Shown here: in pieces, positions 44,403-49,471 of the stretch
Layout: each line of letters starts with the position of its first letter
Position numbering within the stretch: the stretch's first letter is position 1
Source: an archaeon GW2011_AR20
GTDB taxonomy: Archaea > Nanobdellota > Nanobdellia > SCGC-AAA011-G17 > GW2011-AR20
Reading direction: 5' to 3'
NCBI GenBank assembly: GCA_000830315.1
Contig: CP010426.1
Location: forward strand, 199,156 to 263,155
Length of the DNA stretch: 64,000 nucleotides
Translations under genes and position numbers: made by a program
The notes under the pieces: generated by a model
The model's input: only the letters and a program-made list of their open reading frames with translations
What the model was told of the DNA's origin: nothing
Databases searched by the model: none

Positions 44403-44858
44403 ATGGTAAAAATGGATATTTGTCCAAGGTGCATGAAAAAACCTTATAGGGTAACTGCTGGGGTTTGTCATAATTGTTATAGAAAATACATCTGGAAAAG
44501 AAAAAAGGCTGAATGTAAAAATTGTAAAAGAAGAATGTTTATCCAGGCTTGGGGATTTTGTACGAATTGTTACAATAAACTTAATCATTATGATAGAATA
44601 AAAAGTCACAATTACAGGAAATGGCACAACATAGACTTAGAAACTTACCGTAAAATAACAAAACAATGCGTAATGTGCGGATTTGACAAAATAGTTGACT
44701 TACATCATTTGGATCATGATCATAAAAATAATTCTCAAGAAAATCTTATTGGTTTGTGTCCAAATCATCATCGAATGGTTCATATAATCCAATACAGGGA
44801 CGAACTTACCAAAATTTTAGAAGAGAAAGGCTACAAAATTCCAGAGAAGCACCTTTAG
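44403..44858 (+). CDS. HNH endonuclease with N-terminal zinc ribbons
   Basis: A 151-residue protein. Two zinc-ribbon-like units come first (CPRCMKKPYRVTAGVCHNCY and CKNCKRRMFIQAWGFCTNCY), then an HNH nuclease module (about 93-130). In it CVMCGFDKIVDLHHLDHD and GLCPNHHRMVH provide the metal-binding His, Asn and structural Cys. Free-standing HNH genes are typical homing or restriction nucleases. The promoter is loaded with palindromes, suggesting tight control by the divergent AbrB-like gene. Confidence 0.88.
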   Translation: MVKMDICPRCMKKPYRVTAGVCHNCYRKYIWKRKKAECKNCKRRMFIQAWGFCTNCYNKLNHYDRIKSHNYRKWHNIDLETYRKITKQCVMCGFDKIVDLHHLDHDHKNNSQENLIGLCPNHHRMVHIIQYRDELTKILEEKGYKIPEKHL

Positions 44859-44943: not shown

Positions 44944-45699
44944 TTATACAATTTTTTTACTACTTTTCCACATTCCTTCATATATCTCTCTTAATTTATT
45001 TGGATTTCTTAATTTTATTAAATATGTTGGTTTATTTTTAGCACCGTCTTTTATTGATTGCCCCATTACCCAACCCTCATTGCTATCTATAAAGATTCCC
45101 CGATCATGAATATATAGACTTTCTCTAACTTCAAAAGTTCCTTTCTGTTGTCCTTTAAACATACGCCCTAACTTAATAAAATTTCCACTAAATTTCATGT
45201 TATTGGAATTTGTTATTACCCTTATGTTTAGGGAATTATCCGCCCCCTTTAAAGTGATTTCTAGAAGGTGATCTTCTACGTATGGTTCAATTATAAATAA
45301 CTCTCTTTTAGTAGCTTTAATTATATCTTTTATATCAATATGGAAATCAAATCTACTGCCTTTATCATAAATTCTTTCTTCTAAAAAATTTTGTTCTATA
45401 TTTAATTCTATATCTTGAATTTTTCGATCAATATCACCAATTAATTCTTCACAGTCTCCCTTTGAAGGCTTTTCCTTACTGAGGAAAATTGACAAAAAAT
45501 TATTCAATTCTTTTAATATTTCTGTTTTTTTAGTGATTTCTAGCTTAATGCAAATACCTCGAATTTTTAATTTTAATTTTTTCAGATTTTGTTTATAATG
45601 TTGATGTCCAGGAGGATATTTCTTAGATATCAATTCAAAATTTTGAATATTTTCTTTCAACTCTTTTAACAATCTTAAAATTTCAGCATCAGTTGCCAT
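44944..45699 (-). CDS. PLD-like domain protein
   Basis: A 251-residue protein. The N-terminal helical part is about 1-105. The second part (about 108-251) resembles one phospholipase D-like half: RELFIIEPYVEDHLLEITLK, RESLYIHDRGIFIDSNEGWV, MGQSIKDGAKNK. The HxD of IHDR sits where the HKD His lies, and SIKDG is the conserved follow-on. Single-domain PLD-like proteins of this kind can be nucleases or nucleic acid binders. It is the last gene of a four-gene operon with an 11-base coupled overlap. Confidence 0.75.
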   Translation of the reverse strand: MATDAEILRLLKELKENIQNFELISKKYPPGHQHYKQNLKKLKLKIRGICIKLEITKKTEILKELNNFLSIFLSKEKPSKGDCEELIGDIDRKIQDIELNIEQNFLEERIYDKGSRFDFHIDIKDIIKATKRELFIIEPYVEDHLLEITLKGADNSLNIRVITNSNNMKFSGNFIKLGRMFKGQQKGTFEVRESLYIHDRGIFIDSNEGWVMGQSIKDGAKNKPTYLIKLRNPNKLREIYEGMWKSSKKIV

Positions 45700-46084
45700 T
45701 TTCTATTAAGTTTTTGATTTTCTTTAAATTATGATTTGGAATAACATATCCTTCTTTTTCCTTTAAAACCAATTTTTTATAATTGGTACAAAGGGCGTTT
45801 TTTACATCACTTTTGCTTATAAAAGCGCCTTTACTAACTTCTGGAATTTTCGAAGGCTCTGTTATACTTTTTATTCCTTTAAGAATCATAGCTTTTTTGC
45901 TTATTAGATAAATTAAGGCCTTATGTTGATTATTTATTTTCTCAAAGTTTTCTGAAAAGGAAATATTTCCAATTAAATCAATGGTAACATAGGGTTTTAG
46001 AATCTCTACAACCAACCTTTTATCAGCTGGCTCATTTTTATCCACAAAAATTTCATCTAACTCATCTTGTTTATGTTCAGACAT
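45689..46084 (-). CDS. Small winged-helix-like protein, operon gene 3
   Basis: A 131-residue protein. I chose ATG 46084 (MSEHKQDELDEIF) since it overlaps the previous TGA by 8 bases, like the other junctions. It reads ADKRLVVEILKPYVTIDLIG, ALIYLISKKAMILKGIK, and then an HTH-like stretch (ISKSDVKNALCTNYKKLVLK, GYVIPNHNLKKIKNLIE). A DNA-binding or adaptor role is likely. The family is not one I can name. Confidence 0.7.
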   Translation of the reverse strand: MSEHKQDELDEIFVDKNEPADKRLVVEILKPYVTIDLIGNISFSENFEKINNQHKALIYLISKKAMILKGIKSITEPSKIPEVSKGAFISKSDVKNALCTNYKKLVLKEKEGYVIPNHNLKKIKNLIENGN

Positions 46085-46484
46085 TTTTCTTGAAATCTCC
46101 ATCTATTTTTTCTTGTCCACTAATTGTAATGTAAAAAGTTTTTTTACCGTCTCTTTTCTCCTTATTTTCAGCTACCCATCCTTTTTTAATACATTGATTT
46201 ACTTTATCAGTTACATTTTGCGGAATCTTTAACTTGGCTTTTCTGAACCCTTCTTCTATCTCTTTCGAAGTAAAGAATTCCACCCCTTCTTTTTGTTCCA
46301 AAAATGATCCAATACAAAGTGTTATTTGAAGATCATCTGTAGGATTTTTTTCTTTTACAAACTCTACAAGGGAAATTTCTTTTGGTTTTCCGGGTAAACT
46401 TTGAGTATGATCTTCTACCACTTCCAATTTCTTTATTCTTTCCTCATGATCTTTTAAGATTTCAATTATTTTCTTTTCATCCAT
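46077..46484 (-). CDS. Small winged-helix-like protein, operon gene 2
   Basis: A 135-residue protein with a short N-terminal coiled coil (MDEKKIIEILKDHEERIKKL), a linker, and a domain with TLCIGSFLEQKEGVEFFTSK, EIEEGFRKAKLKIPQNVTDK, CIKKGWVAENKEKRDGKKTF. That reads as a winged helix with an RDGKKTFYIT wing. Its ATG overlaps the preceding stop as ATGGATGA. It may form a complex with the other small proteins of the operon. Confidence 0.72.
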   Translation of the reverse strand: MDEKKIIEILKDHEERIKKLEVVEDHTQSLPGKPKEISLVEFVKEKNPTDDLQITLCIGSFLEQKEGVEFFTSKEIEEGFRKAKLKIPQNVTDKVNQCIKKGWVAENKEKRDGKKTFYITISGQEKIDGDFKKNV

Positions 46485-46710
46485 TTTTTATTTTAAAATA
46501 CATCCATTCCCCTCCTGAATTCTTCTTTCTTTCTAAAACATGCTCCTGACATAAAAAGGTTAAAAGTTGGGATGCTAAACTTATTTTTTTTCCCGAAATT
46601 GAAAATCCCTTTTGATCAAGTCTTTCAACAACTTCTTTAATTGATTTCTGAGCATCAAAAAAACCCTCATCCACTAACCTCTTAAATAGATCTTTACTAA
46701 TCGTTGCCAT
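46477..46710 (-). CDS. Small winged-helix-like protein, operon gene 1
   Basis: A 77-residue protein. LFKRLVDEGFFDAQKSIKEV, VERLDQKGFSISGKKISLAS and QLLTFLCQEHVLERKKNSGG form the three-helix-plus-wing pattern, ending EWMYFKIKNG. It opens the operon with a leaderless-type promoter (TTTATAAATACA on the minus strand, about 46729-46740). It resembles gene 2 in build. Confidence 0.72.
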   Translation of the reverse strand: MATISKDLFKRLVDEGFFDAQKSIKEVVERLDQKGFSISGKKISLASQLLTFLCQEHVLERKKNSGGEWMYFKIKNG

Positions 46711-46971
46711 GGATATTTCAAATTAAATGTATTTATAAAAGTTTCTATTTAAAAAATTAAGGGTACCTTTATACATCTCGTTACTAAAATTAAGAATTTT
46801 TTACCAATTTACTTGTTAAATAGTATTTTTTATAGAAATCATGATATAAAACATCTTTTTTATTTGAATACCCTTTTGGTAAATTTTTATCATACTTTCT
46901 ATTTTATTTTATAAATCAACCATAGAACATTTGATGTGACCAATAATTAAAAATCTTTCTTAAATCAAATT
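46711..46971. other. AT-rich gap between two minus-strand operons
   Basis: These 261 bases contain the promoter of the small winged-helix operon next to 46710. Beyond that they are AT-rich, with no gene, tRNA or clear repeat that I can see. Confidence 0.5.
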
Positions 46972-47772
46972 TTATTTTATTACCTCTAACCTAGATTCTT
47001 CAAATAACTTTCTTTGCTCGGGTTTCAATCTTTTTTTGATTATTGATAAATATTTCTTCTCTTTTTCAATGCCAATAGAGTTTCTTCCTAACATATTTGC
47101 GACGACAGAAGTAGTTCCAGAACCCAAAAAAGGGTCTAAAACAATATCTTCTTTATTTGTACAAGATAATATAACTCTTCTTAATAATTCCATTGGTTTT
47201 TGTGTAGGATGTACTCCCGCAAATTTTTCACTTTTTGGAGTTAAAGGAATTACCCACACATTTCTAGTTTGCTTTCCCATTGGATTTAAAGAATCTTCAA
47301 TTAGATTTTTTGTATCTTCATAATTAAATTTCCATTTTTTACCATTCCCATTTTTACTAGCCCAGATTAAATGCTCCGTGCTTTCTGTGAACATCCTGCA
47401 AGATATATTTGGTTGTGCATTAGGTTTAAACCATACAACGCTATTATTAATTTTCATATCTGTATAATGTTGTAAAATAAAACCAATTTGATATATATTA
47501 TGAAAAGAACCACTAACCCATAAACTTCCACCATGTTTTAAAATTCTTATGCATTCTCTAATCCATTGTTGATTAAACTGAAAAAATTCATCTTTAGAAA
47601 ACATATCCCATTCTTCCTGCATTGTTATATGTTTACTATACTTCCACCCCAAACCTTTCTTTTTTGACATATTATAAGGAGGATCAGCAAAAACTAAATC
47701 AACCGACTTATCTGGAATTTCTTTTAATTTTTCCAAACAATCTCCAAGTATTACTTTATGCGTTGTTTTCAT
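46972..47772 (-). CDS. Beta-class DNA methyltransferase (N6-A or N4-C)
   Basis: A 266-residue enzyme with motif IV FADPPYNMS (about 29-37) near the N terminus and the SAM-binding motif I LDPFLGSGTTSVVANMLGR (about 208-226) near the C terminus. This order defines class beta. Target-recognition residues lie between them (about 60-190). VHPTQKPMELLRR is the usual motif X. Length is typical. It is translated as the last gene of a three-gene overlapping cassette. No restriction enzyme is recognisable, so it may be an orphan or have an unknown partner, possibly the divergent gene at 48125. The recognition site cannot be told. Confidence 0.93.
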   Translation of the reverse strand: MKTTHKVILGDCLEKLKEIPDKSVDLVFADPPYNMSKKKGLGWKYSKHITMQEEWDMFSKDEFFQFNQQWIRECIRILKHGGSLWVSGSFHNIYQIGFILQHYTDMKINNSVVWFKPNAQPNISCRMFTESTEHLIWASKNGNGKKWKFNYEDTKNLIEDSLNPMGKQTRNVWVIPLTPKSEKFAGVHPTQKPMELLRRVILSCTNKEDIVLDPFLGSGTTSVVANMLGRNSIGIEKEKKYLSIIKKRLKPEQRKLFEESRLEVIK

Positions 47773-48664: not shown

Positions 48665-49471
48665 ATGAATTATCTAGAAAAAGTAAGAACTGAATTAAAA
48701 TTAAAGGGAAATTCAGAAAAAACAATCTCATCATACTCATTCTTCATCAATAAATTTATAAAAAATATAAATCCAGAAACAGCTTCTTTAGATGATATAA
48801 AAACATTCTTAGCATCCCAAATAGATAATTATTCAAGAAAATCCCAGTCATTATTAATTTCAAGCTTAAGATTCTTTTACACAAACATAATAGACAAGCC
48901 AGAGATTGTAATAAAATTAAAGACACCAAAAAAAGAAAAAAAAATACCAATAGTATTAACAAAAGAAGAAGTAAAATTATTAATAGACAATGCAGACTAT
49001 GAAAAAACAAAATTAATGGTAAAAACTCTTTATTCAACAGGATTACGTGTATCTGAATTAACTAATCTAACACCGAAAGATTTGGATTTAAACAACAATA
49101 ACGGATGGGTAAGGAAAGGTAAAGGAAGCAAAGATAGAATGTTTTATTTCTCACCATCATTAAGCAAGGAATTAAAGAAATACTTAGAAAATAATCCAAA
49201 TAACAAATACTTATTCTCTGAAGAAAAACCATTAACGCCCAGGAATATACAGACAATAATGAAAAGATTAAGCAAAAAAGCAAACATAAACAAAAAAATA
49301 ACTCCACATACTTTAAGACATTCTTTTGCAACACATTTACTAGAAAACGGAGCTAATTTGGCAGAGATACAGCAGTTGCTCGGTCATGAAAATTTAGAAA
49401 CAACCAGAATTTATACGCATATTAGTCAAGAACAATTAAAGAAAATTAAAAACCCGTTGGATAATTTATAA
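48665..49471 (+). CDS. xerA: XerA-type tyrosine recombinase
   Basis: A 268-residue recombinase. A SAM-like N-terminal domain (1-85) is followed by the catalytic domain with all expected residues: Arg in STGLRVSELT, Lys in GKGSKDRMF, His and Arg in HTLRHSFATH, His in LLGHENLETT and the nucleophile Tyr in RIYTH. It ends KKIKNPLDNL, the usual archaeal XerA tail. It probably resolves chromosome dimers at a dif site or acts as an integrase. It is related to the weaker copy at 54058. Confidence 0.93.
   Translation: MNYLEKVRTELKLKGNSEKTISSYSFFINKFIKNINPETASLDDIKTFLASQIDNYSRKSQSLLISSLRFFYTNIIDKPEIVIKLKTPKKEKKIPIVLTKEEVKLLIDNADYEKTKLMVKTLYSTGLRVSELTNLTPKDLDLNNNNGWVRKGKGSKDRMFYFSPSLSKELKKYLENNPNNKYLFSEEKPLTPRNIQTIMKRLSKKANINKKITPHTLRHSFATHLLENGANLAEIQQLLGHENLETTRIYTHISQEQLKKIKNPLDNL

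Follow-up and report, generated by a model that had tools for sequence, protein, structure and literature searches.

A compact archaeal operon of small winged-helix-type proteins and a PLD-fold protein belongs to a modular, effector-swapping system with a candidate role in defence or toxin-antitoxin biology

Small winged-helix (wH) proteins coupled to an enzyme of toxic type are known from type II toxin-antitoxin and AbiE systems, and wHTH domains combined with exchangeable HEPN or PLD effectors from the type III CoCoNuT systems, which are built on a McrB-type GTPase and the CnuH helicase and are reported to be nearly absent in archaea (PMC11090510). Effectors of the HEPN superfamily, of the Abi and Ymh types, have been found near or inside restriction-modification operons, and accessory domains, the AbiJ-NTDs, are common to HEPN, PLD and other effectors, being fused to the effector in the systems covered by the sections of that survey considered here (Anantharaman et al. 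2013, PMC3710099). Among defence candidates, the PADLOC family PDC-S05 is a single gene that joins an N-terminal ORF6N DNA-binding domain to a C-terminal PLD-like domain, and the two copies that we tested were indeed ORF6N and PLD-like fusions. Here we describe an operon from a 64,000-nucleotide stretch of the genome of the archaeon GW2011_AR20 (contig CP010426.1, positions 199,156 to 263,155), hereafter the window, that resembles each of these systems in part.

Four coupled genes lie on the minus strand, where a preliminary description of the window had placed them: gene A (46477-46710; 77 aa, first in the operon and of a winged-helix-like family), gene B (46077-46484; 135 aa, an N-terminal coil followed by a winged helix), gene C (45689-46102; also of a winged-helix-like family) and, in last place, the gene of a 251-aa PLD-fold protein, the putative effector (44944-45699). 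C measures 137 aa from its first ATG at 46102 and 131 aa from the ATG at 46084; either start fits, the starts of its relatives vary and we regard the two as equally possible. Genes A and B overlap by 8 bp and genes C and PLD by 11 bp, while B and C overlap by 8 bp with the shorter form of C or by 26 bp with the longer one, so that the overlaps of 8, 8 and 11 bases first reported hold when C is read from 46084. An AAAATG context, said to precede every start, is present at the three internal ones, whereas gene A begins in the context TCCATGG. A TATA-like box read from the sequence (TTTATAAATA, 46730-46739, minus strand) lies about 25 bp upstream of the ATG of gene A, a spacing that suggests a leaderless archaeal transcript, and it is plausible that this single promoter serves the whole four-gene operon.

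Searches of Pfam, NCBIfam and PADLOC gave no convincing match for A, B or C, and those in PHROGs were weak. Profiles built without the window recovered all three proteins (A at E 1.4e-18, B at E 4.8e-41, C at E 9e-24), which establishes them as families; as the seeds of the A and C profiles were picked from B-bearing operons, by position and look, these E-values express family membership rather than the result of an unbiased search. Used alone as a query of genomes, C led to matches adjoining B in G281, G280 and G283. Only matches with E <1e-15 were counted as C, and the matches in 47 of 236 genomes were mostly short, generic wH similarities (region 71-133, E >1e-6) that were discarded. For B the pattern scan used a four-row subset of the alignment, the nine-row alignment being too divergent, and distant matches (L074-L076, and L033/L043 in G008) were left out as members. 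Pairwise similarity was absent between A and a 73-aa protein of G002 and between C and a 148-aa protein of the same genome. All three had been described as winged-helix-like, and this holds to different degrees. The AF2 model of B (pLDDT ~90) has a coil at residues 3-24 and then a winged helix, with MarR-type proteins as the top fold matches in a structure search with the model; the profile comparison of C with the PDB yields weak wH similarity (E 0.04 and up), and for A the sign is a sequence pattern.

The fourth protein is PLD-like, as proposed. Its closest solved structure by sequence is MITD1 (4a5z, E 4e-4), and its AF2 model (pLDDT 75) consists of four N-terminal helices (residues ~1-102, confidence ~65) and a PLD fold (~108-250) that Foldseek matches to MITD1 (1.1e-7), TrmBL2 and, as expected of the fold of canonical HKD/PLD nucleases, NucT, Nuc and Zucchini; E-values run from 1e-7 to 2e-5 for MITD1, TrmBL2, NucT and Nuc, and from 2e-6 to 3e-5 for the three nucleases NucT, Nuc and Zucchini. 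In Pfam, PLDc_2 and MIT_C fall below the cut-off (MIT_C reaches 18.7 bits where 25 are required). The putative active site is an HDRx-hI ... GxSxKD motif at residues 198-218 (45046-45108, minus strand), and in an alignment of ten PLD effectors H198, D199, R200, I204, G213, S215, K217 and D218 are invariant. This is not the canonical HxK(x)4D(x)6GSxN of the HKD nucleases: HxR is present in 10 of 10 sequences, the motif Asp is variable and GxSxKD takes the place of the final element. We nevertheless consider that the protein may act as a nuclease through this non-canonical motif. The active site of Nuc is formed in a dimer and, by analogy, the single motif per chain suggests that the active site here would also need a dimer. 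Two further PLD matches (L017, L018) contained stops and lay among unrelated genes, and were rejected as chance.

Set against the described systems, the protein shares its C-terminal PLD-like domain type with PDC-S05, whose profile matches residues 80-243 (E 8.1e-15; profile positions 150-300 of 306), that is, the second half only; Pfam found no ORF6N domain in it, the helical N-terminus is different and its wH partners are encoded by separate genes. Full-length matches to PDC-S05 occur in L003 and L004, and ORF6N-PLD proteins of this kind were also seen in G129, G051 and other genomes of the class, some with two to four copies of the PLD domain. MITD1 has the HDR motif in common with the window protein and a PLD-like fold in its MIT_C domain; it is a eukaryotic ESCRT cytokinesis factor without wH operon partners, and one that has been described as lacking catalytic activity. 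No fusion of a TrmB wH domain to the PLD fold was seen here, the N-terminal half being modelled as long helices and having no TrmB match in Pfam. The operon encodes neither of the CoCoNuT foundations, and A, B, C and the PLD protein match no McrB-type GTPase family. It is coupled like a two-gene toxin-antitoxin locus, yet it has four genes and an effector outside the curated toxin families, and it differs from type II toxin-antitoxin and AbiE systems in having several distinct wH proteins behind which unrelated effectors are exchanged. The Abi/Ymh systems resemble the HEPN-bearing relatives of the operon in superfamily and placement, but carry their accessory domains as fusions to the effector, whereas the small wH proteins here are separate genes, and the sections of PMC3710099 considered make no mention of operons of separate small wH proteins. 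That no named system has this composition was a claim of the preliminary description, and it agrees with our searches of family and defence libraries; searches of open-licence PMC papers likewise turned up no account of operons of this kind, which, given their restricted scope, is a weak absence. So far as these libraries and the open literature show, this real, effector-swapping module is undescribed.

In the loci that we read, B and/or C belong to short series of genes on one strand that overlap or leave small gaps, and most of these series end in a PLD or HEPN gene of 200-270 aa. The last gene encodes a PLD-fold protein in the window and in L035, L037, L038, L040, L045, L047-L050, L056, L077 and L080, and across loci these PLD effectors carry at least three different N-terminal halves. 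It encodes an Abi-type HEPN protein of about 255 aa in L039, L042, L052, L081, L082 and L093, a Ymh-HEPN protein (PF09509) in L036 (3.7e-32) and L096 (5.3e-20), and a wH plus DUF4145-like HEPN protein in L041, L053 and L092; in the DUF4145-like effectors the Arg normally found upstream at the H motif is missing, and L052 has an atypical motif. The window operon itself is, by its closest matches, a mosaic of three different loci: A (56% over 77 aa) and B (45%) are nearest to L036 (G267), which has a Ymh-HEPN effector, C is nearest to L092 (G091; 62% over 124 aa), which has a DUF4145-like one, and the PLD protein is nearest to L040 (G280; 57% over 168 aa). A tree of B would need six changes between PLD and HEPN, of which its well-supported branches force only one; being poorly resolved, it is compatible with exchange but falls short of proof, and the claim of exchange rests on the pairwise matches and the comparison of loci, which demonstrate the modularity of the system at the level of sequence. 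In one locus (L079:4710-5689, G756) C and B lie a short way upstream of a mutS2-like gene, unaccompanied by an effector. The preliminary description had held that finding the genes apart in other genomes would count against a module, and had proposed to look for four families in the same order. The families A, B and C are in fact found together at other loci, contrary to that refutation; their order varies (B-A-C-A-PLD in L040, C-B-A-PLD in L056, C-B-A-HEPN in L052), and the PLD protein is one of several last genes.

The surroundings of the operon are those of an accessory region. A CcrM-like DNA N6/N4 methyltransferase (46972-47772, minus strand; PF01555, 1.2e-60) is encoded on the strand of the operon, 262 bp upstream of it, confirming the methyltransferase neighbour first noted; a zinc-ribbon/HNH-like protein (44403-44858, plus strand) is convergent with the module, with a match to a PHROG HNH endonuclease (6.2e-6) and Pfam matches all below cut-off; and a tyrosine recombinase (48665-49471; PF00589, 8.1e-47) about 2 kb away suggests that the region may be mobile. 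Elsewhere the module adjoins two methyltransferases (L035), Dcm and Vsr (L039), a ResIII protein (L040), an Eco57I/TaqI-type methylase and HSDR_N (L042) or a methylase and an MvaI/BcnI-type nuclease (L048), and in L053 it sits between hsdM and hsdS of a type I operon, with a 4-bp overlap between the HEPN gene of the module and hsdS. Restriction genes are absent nearby in several loci (L037, L041, L049). For the one methyltransferase family considered, PF01555, a gene lies within 5 kb of the module in 4 of 16 module-bearing genomes against 0.34 expected, an excess whose P value of 2e-4 is indicative, as the 5 kb cut-off was chosen once the loci were known and genome sizes were rounded.

The distribution of the module is patchy. 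A profile made from B and the first relative identified detected B in 10 of the 371 genomes of the phylum; B-family loci were present in 7 of 245 genomes in the class of a Dehalococcoidia locus and in 4 of 287 in the phylum of an Uhrbacteria locus. Relatives of B and/or C occur in similarly packed operons of other archaea of the Woesearchaeota/Pacearchaeota class, and the system reaches beyond DPANN genomes: B-family loci are carried on Halobacterium and Haloarcula plasmids and in bacterial MAGs labelled Dehalococcoidia, Aminicenantes, Uhrbacteria, Liptonbacteria and Proteobacteria (relatives that include Patescibacteria), where binning may misplace single contigs. On two haloarchaeal plasmids (L086:4556-6731, L087:4529-6502) we observed C-B-C'-AAA_assoc_C operons and, converging on them, a DUF87 ATPase gene.

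We favour the reading of a modular system in which wH-type proteins accompany one exchangeable effector, probably an abortive-infection-type defence or a toxin-antitoxin-like module. B and C would form its usual core, with an A-type protein as a frequent third. The small wH proteins, made in lockstep with the effector (PLD here, HEPN elsewhere), would bind nucleic acid and the effector, perhaps in a complex, repress the operon and restrain the effector until infection, the arrival of foreign DNA or a disturbance of the adjoining restriction system set it free; the effector would then damage nucleic acid and halt the cell. Points against this reading are the HxR motif with its variable Asp, the HDR motif shared with MITD1, the unusual motifs of the DUF4145-like and L052 HEPN effectors, the loci with no restriction genes close by, the locus that lacks an effector (L079), the weak wH similarity of C and the poor resolution of the B tree. 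That C acts on an effector is best indicated by its fusions: a HEPN protein of Natronomonas pharaonis (L085) has a C-type domain at its C-terminus (residues 167-287, 1.3e-8), and C-fused wH proteins in L095 (1486-2666) and L097 (698-1896) are directly followed, with a 4-bp overlap, by a YoeB/ParE-like protein, the YoeB-like matches being below the Pfam cut-off.

These last gene pairs are possibly archaeal toxin-antitoxin pairs, and they speak for taking the module mainly as an addiction system, in which the wH proteins would be antitoxins and autorepressors and the last gene a toxin, and whose role would be to stabilise mobile DNA and not to defend the cell. The weak resemblance of the C protein of L045 to the AbiEi antitoxin, the haloarchaeal plasmid operons and the patchy distribution would suit such a role. 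Three or four separate wH genes, however, exceed what a minimal antitoxin needs, the insertion between hsdM and hsdS and the other restriction genes nearby fit defence better, and the viral contigs and phage records that we searched yielded no relative of B, the PLD protein or the HEPN proteins, so that we consider a mainly addictive function unlikely, though deserving of attention. A regulatory role for the PLD protein itself seems to us more doubtful still. It would then be a sensor with a TrmB/MITD1-type ligand-binding fold that works with wH transcription factors, for example on the neighbouring methyltransferase, and is not a nuclease; MITD1 and TrmBL2 as best folds and the non-canonical motif speak for it, but unrelated HEPN families occupy the same operon position, ten diverse PLD effectors all keep the HDR/GxSxKD residues, and the defence candidate PDC-S05 contains this PLD domain too. 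That the genes are unlinked small regulators, neighbours by chance in an accessory region, is very improbable: wH proteins abound and the loci differ in the order of their genes, yet the same families are found together across archaea and bacteria, C as the sole query landed beside B, and fusions exist.

Returning to the modular reading, we advance more tentatively, and with slightly more doubt than conviction, the idea that A, B and C represent an immune architecture, unnamed so far and common to archaea and bacteria, whose conserved complex of separate wH proteins would sense invasion or the inactivation of a neighbouring restriction system and could be refitted by gene replacement with unrelated killing enzymes (PLD, several HEPN families, YoeB-like). 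The module recurs near restriction genes, yet it is missing from Pfam, NCBIfam and PADLOC. The occurrence of the same wH set with different effectors lets the function of the wH proteins be tested directly by comparison, and the haloarchaeal plasmids and bacterial relatives make the module open to laboratory study.
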